Part shown: positions 3,420-16,513 of the stretch, piece after piece
Position numbering within the stretch: position 1 is the stretch's first letter
Layout of the letters: every line of letters begins with the position of its first letter
From: a virus
DNA length: 34,231 nt
Virus record (IMG/VR): IMGVR_UViG_3300005347_000006
Location: 1-34,231 of that record
Strand: one strand, 5' to 3'
The notes under the pieces: model-generated
What the model was told of the DNA's origin: nothing
Seen by the model: only the letters and a program-made list of their open reading frames with translations
Databases searched by the model: none
Translations under genes and position numbers: made by a program

Positions 3420-3758
3420 TTAAAGGTTGTTCTTCACGTCCTGAGCTGCATCCTGTGCAGCGCCTGCGACTTGTTCAGCGGCAGCGACCGTGGCCTCATC
3501 CCCGCCCGATGCCTCGAACCCGTCGCGCGATAGCTTCAGGGTGCGGCGGTTGATCGCGAGGCCCAGCGACAACAGTACGGCTCCGATGATCGCCAAAAGG
3601 CCGTATGCGATGTTTGCGAGCGGATCGGCGCGAACCCAGATTTGAAACAGGTAGATGATCCACGCCAGAAGGCCCGTCAGGACCGCAGAGCCAGCGATCG
3701 AGGCTAGGAGCGCTATCAATGCCCGCCAGTCCCTAGGGGGCCACCCAGGGACGCTCAC
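3420..3758 (-). CDS. Two-helix membrane protein, holin candidate
   Basis: The chosen GTG at 3758 overlaps the endolysin stop by 4 bases (GTGA), so translation is probably coupled; a longer frame from 3833 would lie inside the endolysin gene. The 112-residue product has two membrane helices, about 14-42 (A-L-I-A-L-L-A-S-I-A-G-S-A-V-L-T-G-L-L) and 51-70 (Y-G-L-L-A-I-I-G-A-V-L-L-S-L-G), with a short loop and a long C-terminus rich in Ala, Gln and acidic residues. Two helices beside an endolysin fit a class II-type holin, which would form the membrane lesion. A spanin partner or other membrane protein cannot be ruled out. Confidence 0.6.
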   Translation of the reverse strand: MSVPGWPPRDWRALIALLASIAGSAVLTGLLAWIIYLFQIWVRADPLANIAYGLLAIIGAVLLSLGLAINRRTLKLSRDGFEASGGDEATVAAAEQVAGAAQDAAQDVKNNL

Positions 3759-6413: not shown

Positions 6414-8909
6414 CTACCGAACCTGATTGCCTTGATCCTGAGCCGCCGCACTGACGGTTGGTGACGACTGGAAGCCGGCGAGCAGCCTTTTTTGCAGCTC
6501 AAGAACGTCATTCGCGGCGGCTGGATTTTGGGTGGCTATGCGCTGCAACTGGCCGACGACCGCGCGAGCCTGCTGCGGGGTCCTTGATTTCCCCAGGGTG
6601 GCCACAACGCGAGCGACACCCGGTGTCGATAACGCCTTTCCTATTGCATAGAATGAACCTTGGGTTGCAAGGCCGGCCGTCAGATCCTGCGTAGCAATTA
6701 GCCCGGTAATGCCGTTAAGGAAAATACCACCCGAGTTTGAGTGATTTGCGTAGCGCGCCGCGTCCTTCACATGGGACGAAACACGGATAAGGCTGTCCAT
6801 AGCCTCCCGATCACCGGGCGCGAATAGGGCGTGCTTGGCCGTGGGCGTCAACTTGCTCCAATTGGTGAGCAATGTTCCGAATGAGAAAGCCTCCCCGCTC
6901 GCGTCCTGTGCGCCAGATGTTGCCCTCCCAAGAGCATTGATGAGCGACGCGCGGACTTGCCCGCCTTCTTCCTCAGGGAGCGCCTTGACGAACTGCGCAA
7001 ATCGCGCGCCATTGCCCCTCGTTGCCGCTTGAAGCGCATCTGTGACCTGCTCCCCGGATTTCTCGCCCTTCCGCCCGATGATCGGCATAATCACGTCATC
7101 AATCATCTTCGCACGCTGTGACCATGCCTGATCGGCTTGGCGATAAAGCTGTGCCGCCTTGCCCTTGCCGGACTGGATAAGCGTCTGCTCGATGTCCTGG
7201 CTGATCGTGTCCACAATCCCGTTAACCCGGCGCTCAATGTCAGAGCCGCGCAATCCATCCTTATAGAACTTGTCGCGGAGTTGGGTGCGTAGGCCGCGAA
7301 GCCCTTGAATCGTGACGCCTTGCGGGAAGCGTTGAACAAGCTCGTCCTTCAACGACGATAGATAATTGGCTGCGTCACTACCCATCGGCACCTGTGAAAG
7401 TTCAGCAAGGTTCGCGTCTAGCTGGGCTACAGCTCGATCTGGATTGACGCGCGCGCCAGCAGATAGCTTGTCGGCTTGGTCGTAAATCCGTCCGATGGCA
7501 TCCCTACTGGCGTCGCGATAATTGAGCGCACCTCGCGTTGCTGTTTGGCCAGCCGCTTCCGCGTTCTGTATTTCTCCCTGCCCGGTGGCGATATTTCGAA
7601 GCGCATCTTTACCCTGTGCAACCATGCGTTGAGCACCAGCAACAACAGGGCGCGCGCCGCCGATTGTCTGAGCCGAAAGCGAAGTGAGAAGTTTGCTTAC
7701 CGGACCTCCGACTGCGGAAGCCGTCGGCTGGATTCCCAAGCTGTCTGCGTCGCGAATGACTGAGGGCGGCGGTGGTCGAAAGGCGGCTGGCGGTGGTGGG
7801 GGCACCTTCCCGACGATGCCTTCGGTTATCATGTTGCTCAATTTTGCAGGGAACCCGAGAGCGCCGCCTTCAAGTCTCGCGGCCTGCCGCGCGCCCCAGT
7901 TGTTCCAGTCTTGCGGAACTGGAACTTGATTGCGGATCATGTCACCGATTTGCGGCGTATTACGTAGAGCGTCAGCCGCGTTCGGAAAGCCGAGCGCATC
8001 GGCGCCAAAGCCCATCGCCTGGCCCATACCCTTCGCCGCCATGTCGGGCAGCGCCGTTAATCCCTCTCCGATGCCAGCACCGACATTGAGCAGGCTTTTA
8101 CCGGCTTGCTGTAAAAGGCTGGGGTCAGGCGTATCGTCGGTAATATCGATCGGCCCGAGCGGGCCTTGGGTAATTCGGCTACCGGGCTGGCTGCCGAGAT
8201 CAAAGTTGCTCGGCATCACTCCAGCTGGTTGATCGAACGCCTTCAGCCAATCGCCAGCTTTCTGCTTAAGATCGCCAGGAACGGCAGGCCCCGCGCTGTC
8301 CATAAGGCCCATGATGGCCCGGCGACGAGCTTCACGCTTCTGAGCGATGATAGTCGGATCGGTTTCGCCGGGCTGCGGGAAATAGATTTGCTTCTGACGC
8401 ACCAGTTCCTCGGGAGGGATCGCCGCACCAGAATCCTGCCGTAGCGTAGCCGCAACAAACTCGTCTTGCGTCGTGTCGAAGCGTTGGCGATCAGGACTGT
8501 TCCCGACGAAGGCCGGAAGCTGGTTCAGAACATCCGGCGCGTTCTCATGCATCTTTTGTCCGACGTAGGATCGCGGCCCCAAATCAAGCCCCTCAAAGTC
8601 GATGTTCGATCCAAGCGCACGGCGCAGAAACGCCGTCGACTTGCTTTGATACTCGTTGAACTGCGGCCCCATCTCAAGTTTTCGGCGGGCCTCCGCGGCA
8701 TCTGCGACCGCTTTGTCAGCATCGGCCTTGGCGACAACTGGCGCATAAGGGGCCTCGGCAGCAGCCTTGCGGTTGTCCAAGACCTTCCCCGTCAGATCCG
8801 CTTCAGCAGTCGGCACCTTATACGGCAAAGTCGGATCAGCCGGTTTCGTAACGATCCCCGCCTGCTGATCCTCGCCATCGGGGAAGGCGTCCCACCAGTT
8901 CTTTTGCAT
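6414..8909 (-). CDS. Large virion (DNA-ejection) protein
   Basis: The 831-residue product follows the transglycosylase frame with a TAATG overlap. Its N-terminal third is hydrophilic; the middle has Ala/Gly-rich, weakly hydrophobic stretches (S-L-L-N-V-G-A-G-I-G-E-G-L-T-A-L) and a proline run near P-P-P-P-P-A-A-F-R-P-P-P-P; the rest is mostly helical (Y-D-Q-A-D-K-L-S-A-G, R-A-S-L-I-N-A-L-G). Size, composition and position at the end of the tail module fit a P22 gp16/gp20-type protein that leaves the capsid with the DNA and helps form the channel across the envelope. No enzyme motif is seen. The stop is TAG; the same frame stays open for about 64 more codons. Confidence 0.7.
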   Translation of the reverse strand: MQKNWWDAFPDGEDQQAGIVTKPADPTLPYKVPTAEADLTGKVLDNRKAAAEAPYAPVVAKADADKAVADAAEARRKLEMGPQFNEYQSKSTAFLRRALGSNIDFEGLDLGPRSYVGQKMHENAPDVLNQLPAFVGNSPDRQRFDTTQDEFVAATLRQDSGAAIPPEELVRQKQIYFPQPGETDPTIIAQKREARRRAIMGLMDSAGPAVPGDLKQKAGDWLKAFDQPAGVMPSNFDLGSQPGSRITQGPLGPIDITDDTPDPSLLQQAGKSLLNVGAGIGEGLTALPDMAAKGMGQAMGFGADALGFPNAADALRNTPQIGDMIRNQVPVPQDWNNWGARQAARLEGGALGFPAKLSNMITEGIVGKVPPPPPAAFRPPPPSVIRDADSLGIQPTASAVGGPVSKLLTSLSAQTIGGARPVVAGAQRMVAQGKDALRNIATGQGEIQNAEAAGQTATRGALNYRDASRDAIGRIYDQADKLSAGARVNPDRAVAQLDANLAELSQVPMGSDAANYLSSLKDELVQRFPQGVTIQGLRGLRTQLRDKFYKDGLRGSDIERRVNGIVDTISQDIEQTLIQSGKGKAAQLYRQADQAWSQRAKMIDDVIMPIIGRKGEKSGEQVTDALQAATRGNGARFAQFVKALPEEEGGQVRASLINALGRATSGAQDASGEAFSFGTLLTNWSKLTPTAKHALFAPGDREAMDSLIRVSSHVKDAARYANHSNSGGIFLNGITGLIATQDLTAGLATQGSFYAIGKALSTPGVARVVATLGKSRTPQQARAVVGQLQRIATQNPAAANDVLELQKRLLAGFQSSPTVSAAAQDQGNQVR

Positions 8910-9304
8910 TAGTTGCTCCCGTACCGGCGCAGCACTTCATCAGCGTAGCGATTGGTTTTCGGCCCCCAGAGTTTCCGGTTCGGGCCTCCGTGATAATACA
9001 TCAGACCGCCTCGGAGCGACCCGGTCTTGTCCACGCCCTCTTGCAGATAGGCGTTACCCAACGCAGACTGATATTGGGCCGCTTCCGGCGTCTTTGCCCG
9101 CATCAGTTCGGGACGCCACGGCAAGCCTAATTTCTGGGCCATTTGCTGTCCGGTGCCGTCTTGCACCTGCATGTTGCCATATGCGCGTCCGTAGGGCGTC
9201 TGCGGGCCTACAGCGCCGGGTTTACCGCCGCTTTCCTGCTGCATCACCGCGCCGGATAGTCGGTCAAAATTGAAAGCCGCCCGAACCCCCTGCGGGGCCG
9301 GCAC
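8909..9304 (-). CDS. Lytic transglycosylase (SLT) domain
   Basis: The frame holds a complete small SLT domain: F-D-R-L-S-G-A-V-M-Q-Q-E-S-G-G with the catalytic Glu, then Y-G-N-M-Q-V, L-G-N-A-Y-L-Q-E-G, L-M-Y-Y-H-G-G-P-N and the end helix Y-A-D-E-V-L-R-R-Y-G. It cleaves peptidoglycan and in phage virions opens the wall for DNA entry. The given start is a GTG at 9304 that sits directly on an AGGAG, too close for good initiation. The domain really begins at Asp encoded by 9265-9263, exactly where the upstream ORF stops one frame away. It may therefore be made as a fusion with that ORF (339 residues) instead of alone. Confidence 0.75.
   Translation of the reverse strand: MPAPQGVRAAFNFDRLSGAVMQQESGGKPGAVGPQTPYGRAYGNMQVQDGTGQQMAQKLGLPWRPELMRAKTPEAAQYQSALGNAYLQEGVDKTGSLRGGLMYYHGGPNRKLWGPKTNRYADEVLRRYGSN
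9263..9269 (-). other. Candidate +1 frameshift site, TTT-TGA-C
   Basis: On the minus strand the upstream ORF ends CAA TTT TGA and the next base is C. A Phe tRNA on TTT can re-pair with the TTT one base on, because the run is TTTT, and the next codon is then GAC in the transglycosylase frame. This matches the 'shifty stop' logic of the bacterial prfB site (CTT TGA C). A GGGCGG lies 7 bases before the TTT and a GCAGGGGG about 15 bases before it; neither has the prfB spacing. A one-base indel in the T run, real or from sequencing, would give the same picture. Confidence 0.45.
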
Positions 9305-9929
9305 CTCCTGGTACTTTCTTGACGGGGCCACCGGGATAGGGTCGGAACGATGAACCGGGCGGTAGTTTCGCGGCATCCGCTGCGGATGAAACGACAGGAA
9401 TGTCCGCGCCTCCGCTAAGCTGCGACGGGTGAGCGTAAACGAAGCGAGACTCGCCGGTTGCCGGGTTATTCTGTATCGTGCTGACCATCGTCGCCTTGGC
9501 GCGAATGTCGGCAGCTTCCTGAGTGCGCCCTTGGCCTTCGAGCCATTTGGCAGTCTGTTCCCAATCTGGCGTGTTGTCCTTATTGGCACGCTCATATTCC
9601 TGTTTCGCCTGCCAATCGGCCATCTCCTGCTGGCGGCGCTGTTCGTACTTCGCCTGATCCGCCTCGATCTGACGGTTCTGCTGCATGGCATCGGTATAGA
9701 TACCCTTCCCCCCAAAGCCGTCACCGATTGCGCCGATGATATCCCAGAGGGTTCCGCCCTTGCCCGCGAACCCTGGTTGAGGAGGCGGCAAAGCGGCGTT
9801 CTGCTGCAAAGCGGAGTTGATCGCGGTCATCTGGTCGGCAACACCGCCGCCGTAGCCGCCGTTGAGCGGGGGCTGTTCAGGGGCGCCCCACAAACCGCCC
9901 GGCTGTTGAAAATCCCAAAAGCTCGCCAT
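9264..9929 (-). CDS. Tail/ejection protein, N-terminal part of transglycosylase fusion
   Basis: The 221-residue frame starts M-A-S-F-W-D-F-Q-Q-P-G-G-L with GAGGA 8 bases before the ATG. It has a Gly/Pro-rich start, a Q- and E-rich coiled-coil middle (Q-N-R-Q-I-E-A-D-Q-A-K-Y-E-Q-R-R-Q-Q) and a flexible Pro/Gly end (P-G-G-A-G-P-A-G-G-S-G-G-F-Q-F). It has no enzyme motif. Its stop falls exactly where an SLT domain begins in the +1 frame, and the Gly-rich end reads like a linker to that domain. Probably a virion component delivered with the DNA. Confidence 0.7.
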   Translation of the reverse strand: MASFWDFQQPGGLWGAPEQPPLNGGYGGGVADQMTAINSALQQNAALPPPQPGFAGKGGTLWDIIGAIGDGFGGKGIYTDAMQQNRQIEADQAKYEQRRQQEMADWQAKQEYERANKDNTPDWEQTAKWLEGQGRTQEAADIRAKATMVSTIQNNPATGESRFVYAHPSQLSGGADIPVVSSAADAAKLPPGSSFRPYPGGPVKKVPGGAGPAGGSGGFQF

Positions 9930-9932
9930 CCC

Positions 9933-11279
9933 CTAGATCCTCGAATAGTCGACTGTCTGATACCCGCCGATCACCGGCCCCAGCGCATGTGGTGCGTGGA
10001 TAGCGACCTCGTCGGCCATCACCCCTTCGCCCGACTCACCCCACGCATAATCAAAGGCGTACCAGCCCAATGGACCACGGCTTCCGATCCGGCGGATATT
10101 GGTCTTCAGCCTGCGGTCGGAGAATTTCATCGCGGAAGCCCCGGCCGCCGCGATATTGCCGAGGATGGGTCCAAGCGCCGCCGTGCTGCTCGATTTGCTG
10201 CCGATGTAGGCAGAGGGAGGAATTGCCCCATAAAGCTGGGCCATCATCTGCAACTGTGTCGGGACGGCATTTAGTTGCTCGGATGTAATCCCTCTCTGCT
10301 GCTCGCCAAGCGCCGCTGTAAGCCCGAGATCGGCCCTAGCGCCGGTATCCTGTGCGGTGCCGATGTTCGACACCAACCCGGCGGCCTGGAGCGCCTGTGC
10401 GGCCTGCTGCTGGGCAAGCTGTGCATTGGTCTTCGATACGTCCGTCGCCTGTCCGGCATTGAAGATGCTGGTCTGCTGCTGTGCCGCTGCGGCATCCCTT
10501 GCCGCCTGCATCTTCATCTGCGCTTGCTGAAGCGCGAAGTCGTTCTTGAACCCGGCATTGGCTAGTGCGACCTGCTGGGCAAGTTCCGCCTGTGCCTGTT
10601 TGAAGCTGTTGTCTGCACCCGCGTTCACAAGGCCGGTCTGCTGCCGGAACCCCGCGTCCACCCCGGCCGCACCGAGAGCGTCGGAATAAGCCTTGGCGCG
10701 AAGCTCAGCTTCGGTCAGTGCCCGGTTCCGGCCGGATTCGGCGTCGAACTGCCCCGCCTGGATGCCGTAGCGAGAGCCGCCAAACGCTCCCGAACCTGCC
10801 GCCCCCGCTTCCATCGCGGCGCGCTGTCGTCCGGTCTGCGCATCGTAGCTCGACATAGTGGCATCGACGAGCGCCTGAATCTCCGGGTCCATATATTTGG
10901 ACACGCCGCCGTTATCGAGGATTGAGGCATAACCGGCATGGACAGCGGGGCCGATATTGGTTTGACCCGCCAGTGACGCATTTCCGAGCTGCGGCGCATT
11001 GTAGGTGAATGCGTTGGCGTTGGTTGCCGTAGCCGTTGGAGCTGGAAGGGCCCCAGCTGCTTTCGCCATGTCCAGCGCGCTGGTCTGCGCGGCCTGTCCG
11101 GCGCCGAGGTTTCCGACCGACCCGAACGCCTGCTGCTGCAATGCGGAAGCCGGTGCGACATATTGAGTGGGGTCTGTTTTACCGAAGTCAGCAATCTTCT
11201 GCGAGAGCCCATCCGGGCCAAACAGATTGCCCTTCATCGGGTCCGTGACAATGGGTTTCGTCTTCGACTTGCTTTTCAT
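9933..11279 (-). CDS. Virion protein with C-terminal S74-like chaperone domain
   Basis: The 448-residue product has an Ala/Gln-rich helical body (repeated Q-Q-Q, N-A-G and A-A-A-Q-Q-Q-T-S-I-F-N-A-G) and a last 63 residues that match the start of the peptidase S74/intramolecular chaperone domain: F-S-D-R-R-L-K-T-N-I-R-R-I-G, then W-Y-A-F-D-Y-A-W and G-V-M-A-D-E-V. Ser387 and Lys392 have the spacing of the self-cleavage Ser-Lys pair in endosialidase-type domains. Such proteins are usually called tail fibre domain proteins, but the position beside the ejection proteins and the helical body suggest an internal or tail-hub role. The domain is shorter than usual. Confidence 0.7.
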   Translation of the reverse strand: MKSKSKTKPIVTDPMKGNLFGPDGLSQKIADFGKTDPTQYVAPASALQQQAFGSVGNLGAGQAAQTSALDMAKAAGALPAPTATATNANAFTYNAPQLGNASLAGQTNIGPAVHAGYASILDNGGVSKYMDPEIQALVDATMSSYDAQTGRQRAAMEAGAAGSGAFGGSRYGIQAGQFDAESGRNRALTEAELRAKAYSDALGAAGVDAGFRQQTGLVNAGADNSFKQAQAELAQQVALANAGFKNDFALQQAQMKMQAARDAAAAQQQTSIFNAGQATDVSKTNAQLAQQQAAQALQAAGLVSNIGTAQDTGARADLGLTAALGEQQRGITSEQLNAVPTQLQMMAQLYGAIPPSAYIGSKSSSTAALGPILGNIAAAGASAMKFSDRRLKTNIRRIGSRGPLGWYAFDYAWGESGEGVMADEVAIHAPHALGPVIGGYQTVDYSRI

Positions 11280-15247: not shown

Positions 15248-16513
15248 TCATGGCAGGAACGTTAGCCAGGGCTGCGCCAGCATCAGTGTCGGATAAACAC
15301 CTTCGCTGATTTTGAAGTGACCCGTTGTGGTCGGGTGCGTGCCATCGGCAGAGTCGGTCGCGCCATCGAGCCAGATGCTTTCATCGGACAGGCTCGCAAC
15401 AAATGCGTTCGGATCGAGATAGCCGTCCGCGCCTGTGATTTCGCCATGTCTTACGCGGCGGTTATACTCGATCAGTTCGGCGTTGCTTGTCGTCCCGGTC
15501 GGGGTGGACTGGCGCGGTATCAGCGTGCAGACGATGGCCTTTGGGGTGATCAGCGGGTTCGCGGCGCTGAAAGCGGCCTTGTAGAGCACGATCTCAGCCT
15601 CGACCAAAGCGTCGAGCTGCGCCGCAGTCTTCCCGCCGCCGACGATATCGTTCGTACCGATCTGGAAAATGAGAACGGAGGTATAGGGATAGATCGCCCG
15701 CCGTGCCGTCCCGACATTCGCTAGTACAGCGGAAGCGCGAGCCGACATGGCGAGGGGGATTTCGGAGCCAAGCAAACGGCCCGCCTTCTTGAACGATCGC
15801 CGCACCCACGCCCCGCCGATCAGCGTGCGGCTATCCTGTCCGACCTCGCCGCCATCGCCGAAGTTTGTGTCGGTGTTATTATAGGCGATGCTGTCGCCAA
15901 GGACCGCGAACGTGTAGCCGTGGACGCCATAACCGAGCACAGCGCGCGGATGCTGCCGGTAGGTTGTGAGAATCAGGCTCGCCGGGCTGACTGTCGTGAG
16001 ATCGGTCGAACCGAGACCCATCGTCTTGCGTCCATAGCCGCCATATTGAGCGCCGGCTGTGTAGGGGATCGTCTGATAGCCTTGCCCGCCGCCGCTCGGA
16101 GCATCGACTTCGCGGTTCAGCCAGATCAGCTTGCCGGCGGCGATGTTGGCAGTGAGAAGGCTGCTCAGAACCCCACCCTGTCCCGCCGTGACGGTCGTGC
16201 GGGCGGCATCGGAGCCGATGCACGCGCCATCGACGATGTACCCGTGCCCGACTTGCTGATCGTTGGATATCGCCTGTTCGACGCCCGAACCGTCAACGTA
16301 AAATGCGCCGTTAAGAACCTGGATGGCGGTGATGTTGATTGCGGTGATGATCGGTATGCGCGTGAACTGCCGCTCGGCACCGGACGAAACAACCTGGCTG
16401 TTGAAGCCGATCTCGCCATATTCGCCGATGATCTGCCATGACGAAATGCCGGCAGCGGCGACGCCGCCACCGCCCTGCGTAGCGGACGCAAGGAGGATGT
16501 CTCGAAACTGCAT
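15248..16513 (-). CDS. SGNH/GDSL esterase-like tail protein
   Basis: The 421-residue product joins an N-terminal beta region (about 1-195) to an SGNH hydrolase fold. Ser208 sits in A-V-L-G-D-S-I-A, Asn288 in Q-I-G-T-N-D-I, and Asp390/His393 in D-G-T-H-P, the block I, III and V residues of the family. A clear block II Gly was not placed. Phage SGNH proteins usually remove acyl groups from capsule or O-antigen sugars, so it may act as a surface-modifying tail enzyme. The N-terminal half could anchor it to the virion. Substrate is unknown. Confidence 0.75.
   Translation of the reverse strand: MQFRDILLASATQGGGGVAAAGISSWQIIGEYGEIGFNSQVVSSGAERQFTRIPIITAINITAIQVLNGAFYVDGSGVEQAISNDQQVGHGYIVDGACIGSDAARTTVTAGQGGVLSSLLTANIAAGKLIWLNREVDAPSGGGQGYQTIPYTAGAQYGGYGRKTMGLGSTDLTTVSPASLILTTYRQHPRAVLGYGVHGYTFAVLGDSIAYNNTDTNFGDGGEVGQDSRTLIGGAWVRRSFKKAGRLLGSEIPLAMSARASAVLANVGTARRAIYPYTSVLIFQIGTNDIVGGGKTAAQLDALVEAEIVLYKAAFSAANPLITPKAIVCTLIPRQSTPTGTTSNAELIEYNRRVRHGEITGADGYLDPNAFVASLSDESIWLDGATDSADGTHPTTTGHFKISEGVYPTLMLAQPWLTFLP

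Follow-up and report, generated by a model that had tools for sequence, protein, structure and literature searches.

Signals for +1 frameshifting in bacteria are few and idiosyncratic, and according to a tool paper of 2024, forward shifts have no identified general motif (PMC10885494). In prfB, the gene of release factor 2 (RF2), the slip site CUU_UGA_C places a stop codon in the A site and lies about 3 nucleotides (nt) from a Shine-Dalgarno (SD) sequence. Phage structural proteins such as those of Listeria PSA (cps/tsh) and SPP1 (gp17.1*), as well as other proteins with Ig-like extensions, use CCC_U-type sites to place Ig-like or other domains on capsid or tail-tube proteins, and some of their homologues are fused in frame (PMC5009743, PMC9022992). 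In bacteria, UUU_Ynn is reported to shift into the +1 frame particularly readily, a stop codon not being needed, and UUU_CGN is used on eukaryotic ribosomes by the amalgaviruses and by influenza A PA-X, which has no known stimulator (PMC5009743). Furthermore, +1 shifting on 70S ribosomes is stimulated by a synthetic upstream hairpin, engineered on CUUUGA without RF2, which refolds beside the E site as a mimic of the SD:anti-SD duplex (Huang, Cho and Chang 2018, PMC6321510). Here we describe a split gene in the IMG/VR virus record IMGVR_UViG_3300005347_000006, the whole of which (34,231 nt) is referred to as the window; this record and all sequences compared with it are assemblies. Comparative sequence analysis makes it highly probable that, in this and related P22-like podoviruses, a programmed +1 frameshift provides a fraction of the copies of a putative DNA-ejection protein with a peptidoglycan hydrolase.

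Arrangement of the split gene in the window and its relatives

The features of the split gene, given in the order in which they would be translated, are as follows (the frame-0 open reading frame, ORF, encodes a protein here called the N-module).

9929-9264, minus strand: frame-0 ORF for the N-module, a putative DNA-ejection/virion protein; ATG start, 221 amino acids (aa), the product of normal termination
9304-9308, minus strand: GGAGG, the invariant SD-like part of the signal (codons GGA GGT at 9308-9303; 28/28 sites)
9279-9302, minus strand: hairpin GCCGGCCCC GCAG GGGGTTCGGGC, with 9 pairs and a 2-nt bulge, predicted at -14.8 kcal/mol; its equivalent covaries in relatives
9278-9276, minus strand: spacer GGC after the hairpin
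9272-9275, minus strand: TTT_C, the most likely slip site, where tRNA-Phe would move from TTT to TTC and reading would resume at AAT 9271
8909-9271, minus strand: +1-frame coding region after the shift, NFDRLSG... with the SLT domain and the stop (PF01464 match, AlphaFold model, PDB matches)
9263-9269, minus strand: TTT TGA C, the slip site proposed by the initial annotation; here an alternative slip site and the frame-0 stop

The 221-aa ORF ends with GGC GGC TTT CAA TTT TGA, the TGA lying at 9266-9264 and being followed by C, and the +1 frame from 9265 to 8909 on the minus strand codes for DRLSGAVMQQESGG...RRYGSN. The initial annotation had noted this ending and an SLT frame lacking a usable start, and had proposed that slippage on a TTT codon yields a short protein together with a 339-aa enzyme fusion; the former was borne out by the sequence, its translations and the PF01464 match, and the latter gained support from 27 other diverged phages, as described below.

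The +1 domain of the window is a predicted SLT lytic transglycosylase (PF01464) with predicted peptidoglycan activity. It matched the Pfam profile with an E-value of 2.4e-7 and 30.7 bits against a curated cutoff of 21.3, and its AlphaFold (AF2) model (predicted local distance difference test score, pLDDT, of 93) showed a lysozyme-like fold whose PDB matches were solved lytic transglycosylases including Slt. In the model, the first helix spans residues 8-20 (FDRLSGAVMQQES) with a catalytic-type Glu near its end, and the Glu of the QQESGG motif was kept in 7/7 aligned SLT relatives. The N-module was modeled with moderate confidence (pLDDT 71, predicted template modeling score 0.33) as a helical protein with a flexible C-terminus, a quality too low for a fold search.

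Initial searches with the window's own proteins found no close relatives. A route through the major head protein gave 80 viral contigs, two of which (L056 and L089) hold a homologue of the 221-aa protein (32-38% identity in the N-module) with an M15 peptidase, not SLT, in the +1 frame, and at a further site (L106, located on the L079 contig) that frame codes for an M23 peptidase. Scanning for the M15 domain then yielded 24 loci and scanning for the N-module 22, several contigs being common to both. Altogether, at 28 sites in different IMG/VR phages, including the window, an ORF ends at the junction and a peptidoglycan hydrolase lies in its +1 frame, and no pair of these sites exceeds 85% identity over the 350 nt around the site. 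To judge by the style of their IMG accessions, three of the carriers (L149, L131 and L152) may be isolate genomes. The enzyme is SLT in 6 of them, M15-type in 21 and M23 in one, as confirmed by Pfam for those tested, with the M15-like domain of L156 scoring slightly below the cutoff. An N-module profile built from four sequences (window, L056, L089 and L106) matched the frame-0 ORF at E<1e-5 in 26 of the 28, L144 and L126 matching weakly.

The comparison of homologues, which the initial annotation had suggested for telling an indel from a programmed shift, showed that most relatives are split, so that the window is not alone in this respect, and that three further relatives are uninterrupted (L139 and L145 with M15, L155 with SLT). 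The existence of these single-ORF fusions indicates that the fused protein is a viable product. In L146, where the context differs, the M15 gene starts at an ATG of its own. Five N-module relatives have no hydrolase (L123, L153, L157/L158, L166/L167 and L169); in these, an ordinary gene comes next and the shift element is missing. One of them, L123 (3399-4037), belongs to Microcystis phage Mvi-Yong1342-1 (PP496355.1), and no other isolate phage was found to encode an N-module relative; this phage carries neither a hydrolase nor the shift element at the N-module, and its annotated lytic transglycosylase lies two genes away, further downstream. Two groups of candidates were rejected: L002 and L003, the first relatives obtained by SLT, where the SLT is a separate gene with an ATGA overlap, and L094-L097, where the middle protein is a different one and, in L095-L097, the next gene has an ordinary overlapping ATG.

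At the junction, the downstream coding region overlaps the upstream ORF in the +1 frame and lacks a usable start of its own. In L149 and L161, no ATG, GTG or TTG occurs in the hydrolase frame within 60 nt on either side of the TTT; in L144, there is no start from the TTT to the catalytic motif, and in L128, a +1-frame stop lies five codons before the TTT. In the window, the first G of GTG 9304 is the last G of GGAGG (9308-9304), leaving zero spacing to a ribosome-binding site; this codon was rejected as a start for this reason, and also on the grounds that L128, L126 and others have no start codon at the corresponding position. A protein begun at either of the next starts, GTG 9247 or ATG 9244, would lack roughly half of the first SLT helix of the model.

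The RNA signal and its proposed mode of action

All 28 sites share one order of elements, in which GGA GGN is followed after 7-9 codons (8 in 23 sites) by an in-frame TTT and then by C (27 sites) or T (one site). Elsewhere in the same ORFs, GGA accounts for only 9.8% of the Gly codons and TTT for 20.5% of the Phe codons, and thus their invariance at 28/28 sites reflects conservation at the nucleotide level. A slip-prone codon and a cis signal are therefore conserved as nucleotides across the 28 sites. The AGGAG that the initial annotation had regarded as part of a poor start site at GTG 9304 turned out to belong to this invariant signal.

A further feature, overlooked by the initial annotation, is a covarying hairpin between GGAGG and the slip site. 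It was predicted between GGAGGN and TTT in 28/28 sites, and in most of them consists of a 7-bp stem directly after GGAGGN, a 4-5 nt loop and a 5-6 nt spacer before TTT, so that it bridges the 22-28 nt that separate GGAGG from the slip codon in sequence. The mean predicted energy was -12.0 kcal/mol, compared with -7.1 for shuffled sequences and -4.1 for stretches taken from elsewhere in these ORFs. In an alignment of the 16 sequences in the 5-nt loop register (A5), 95.5% of the cells were paired with 33 double-change cells, a result reached by 0/500 shuffles, and slid registers gave pairing below 47%; an alignment of 6 sequences with a 4-nt loop (A6) was 100% paired with 12 double-change cells. 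A covariance model built from A5 and run over the 1.67 Mb of searched loci retrieved only family members and one borderline match (E-value of 1). In Rfam, no family matches the element, the single sub-threshold match to lin-4 being due to chance. The single-ORF fusion of L139 retains the whole GGAGG-hairpin-TTTC element at 2447-2487 (47.7 bits with the covariance model).

We propose that most ribosomes would stop at the frame-0 TGA to produce the 221-aa protein, and that a fraction would slip by +1, the peptidyl-tRNA-Phe on UUU re-pairing with UUC, and read on through SLT to produce the 339-aa fusion. Of these two codons, UUC is known to form the better pairing with tRNA-Phe. The cis signal of approximately 40 nt would comprise GGAGG, the hairpin, whose stem has 7 bp in the majority of phages, a spacer that is usually 5-6 nt long, and UUU_Y. 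Once the ribosome has passed, the hairpin would refold and place GGAGG about 6 nt from UUU, and the hairpin, with or without SD:anti-SD pairing, would form an exit-side duplex favoring forward movement. Pairing of GGAGG with CUUUC to form a lower stem is also conceivable and would give GGAGG an alternative role. As a consequence, a limited share of the ejection proteins in the virion, a minority, would bear a wall hydrolase, to be used while the DNA is being ejected.

Probable slip site, alternative explanations and points against frameshifting

Across the family, UUU_C is the common denominator of the putative slip sites (27/28). The next frame-0 codon after UUU is CCC in 11 sites, CGC in 11 and otherwise another sense codon, with a stop solely in L159. 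The initial annotation had placed the slip at TTT_TGA_C and invoked stop-codon slippage of the prfB type; the TTT codon was retained by our analysis, and the stop-codon mechanism did not prove general. In the window, the conserved site is TTT_CAA, and the most likely slip site is accordingly placed by comparison with the family at TTT_C 9275-9272, six bases upstream of TTT_TGA. Slippage at TTT_TGA_C itself is rather unlikely in the window: TTT TGA C is indeed present there, exactly this sequence occupies the conserved position in L159, L149 also ends with it, and UUU_U is found in a minority of prfB genes (PMC5009743), but the second TTT lies 11 codons after GGA GGT, outside the family range of 7-9, whereas the first TTT lies at 9 codons as in L089 and L135, and 27/28 slip codons precede a sense codon or C, not a stop. 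A shift at TTT_C would give GGF-N-FDR and one at TTT_TGA would give GGF-Q-FDR, both within a 339-aa protein and differing only at residue 220; the fusion expected by the initial annotation thus stands, with G-G-F-N-F-D-R as a more likely junction peptide than its G-G-F-Q-F-D-R. CCC_C or CCC_TGA, suspected as slip codons from L056, L089 and L128, were excluded by the sites reading TTT CGC, TTT CAA and TTT CTC, and a -2 shift is unlikely, the codon before UUU varying freely.

It is also conceivable, albeit very improbable, that the hydrolase is a separate gene translated from an internal start or by re-initiation, GGAGG serving as a ribosome-binding site whose effective distance is shortened by the hairpin (a split ribosome-binding site). 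GGAGG is a good SD sequence and precedes the ATG of the next gene in the hydrolase-less L166/L167 (GGAGGTCAGTGAATG), an ATG occurs soon after GGAGG in L056, and the more distant SLT and M15 homologues of L002, L003 and L146 are separate genes. Nevertheless, the codon at the effective start position would be UUU/UUC, starts are absent near the junction in L149, L161 and L144, the upstream +1-frame stop interrupts L128, and the starts available in the window would cut the first SLT helix of the model. The other explanation, already named by the initial annotation as the rival, is that the split in this contig arose from an indel of one base, introduced by sequencing, by assembly or by mutation. 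The single-ORF relatives L139, L145 and L155 would be in line with it, but the recurrence of the same +1 arrangement, the invariant signal and the covarying hairpin in 27 further diverged contigs from different samples makes an indel exceedingly unlikely.

Several observations weigh against programmed +1 frameshifting or limit the case for it. The +1 frame of the window is open by chance for 184 codons upstream of the site, and hence the window taken alone does not go much beyond chance; comparison with the 27 further phages puts the +1 arrangement far beyond it. The hairpin of the window is less regular than most, with its bulge and 3-nt spacer, an equally good fold is reached by 9% of the synonymous versions, and its 85-nt context has no excess stability. 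The A5 covariance model, which is specific but insensitive, misses the window as well as the 4-nt-loop class, and the shuffle controls leave the relatedness among the sequences in place. In L141, furthermore, the hydrolase is in the -1 frame. That locus (2411-2561) contains C CCT TTC, a possible -1 heptamer, and a TTTC one base out of register, which may represent another solution or an assembly error.

Gene context, cassette-like origin and comparison with known systems

The window carries a P22-like virion module with major head, scaffold and portal proteins, and the split gene is placed among ejection-protein genes, downstream of the stabilization/neck genes, in an order that is the same in relatives where seen. 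Its neighbors are as follows.

9933-11279, minus strand: upstream neighbor, virion/DNA-ejection protein of 448 aa (phrog_6121 and phrog_4287; PHROG 'virion structural' and 'DNA ejection')
6414-8909, minus strand: downstream neighbor, ejection protein of 831 aa with 32% identity to the ejection protein of Pseudanabaena phage Pan3; its start coincides with the end of the SLT frame at 8909

Because of this position between virion/ejection genes, that is, from synteny, the product of the split gene is a probable DNA-ejection protein. In Rhizobium phage RHph_I3_18 (L009, 4319-6298), the gene at the equivalent position contains an in-frame Phage_lysozyme2 domain, which represents a different route by which a protein encoded here can gain a wall-cutting domain. 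Also among the virion genes of the window, a 421-aa protein (15248-16513, minus strand) contains a GDSL lipase/esterase domain and is possibly a receptor-modifying enzyme.

What sets phages that carry the hydrolase apart from those that lack it is an insertion directly after GGAGGTCAG (L166 2900-2990, L167 3390-3500, L143 2380-2800). In L166/L167, the state without hydrolase, the upstream gene ends with ...FGPGSAARVLGGQ and a stop, and the GGAGG of GGAGGTCAGTGAATG precedes the ATG of the next gene; in L143, ...FGPGASAKYIGGQ is followed by the hairpin, UUUC, M15 and then a similar next gene. In addition, L142 (M15; 2476-2517) and L161 (SLT; 3454-3495) have an identical GGAGG and hairpin with different enzymes downstream, as if the enzymes had been swapped at the element. 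Owing to this insertion and this shared element, it looks as if a cassette of hairpin, slip site and hydrolase had been inserted behind a ribosome-binding site that was already there.

With the queries tried, no annotated isolate phage with this arrangement was found in the phage collection, and no N-module or M15 relative was found in 385 Alphaproteobacteria genomes, a search made without a positive control. As far as could be found, the GGAGG-hairpin-UUUC signal has not been described before. We consider it somewhat probable that it represents a new class of bacterial +1 signal, in which a natural, conserved hairpin between an internal GGAGG and UUU_C would drive +1 shifting on the 70S ribosome, as a swappable cassette arming ejection proteins with different hydrolases at a controlled ratio. 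The findings suggest that frameshifting is how podoviruses control the amount of wall-cutting enzyme present among their ejection proteins; annotation will miss such hydrolases or assign them a wrong start. A compact covarying element of this size also makes exit-side +1 stimulation directly testable.

In comparison with the known systems, the phage element resembles prfB in the proposed +1 shift, the internal upstream SD-like sequence and the re-pairing of the tRNA one base forward. It differs from prfB in using UUU_C, in having a hairpin between GGAGG and the slip site, which stand 22-28 nt apart instead of about 3 nt, and in presenting a sense codon to the A site in 27/28 sites, TTT_TGA_C being only the second candidate in the window. 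With the PSA/SPP1-type systems it shares the gain of a C-terminal domain by a fraction of a virion protein through (+1) frameshifting, whereas here an enzyme would be added to a putative ejection protein by means of a different RNA signal. As in PA-X and the amalgaviruses, tRNA-Phe would slip from UUU to UUC; in contrast to them, the host is bacterial, GGAGG and the hairpin accompany the slip site, and the A-site codon is CGN in 12/28 sites, the window having TTT CAA. Finally, compared with the engineered hairpins of Huang, Cho and Chang, the phage element would be a natural and conserved counterpart that employs GGAGG and a hairpin together.
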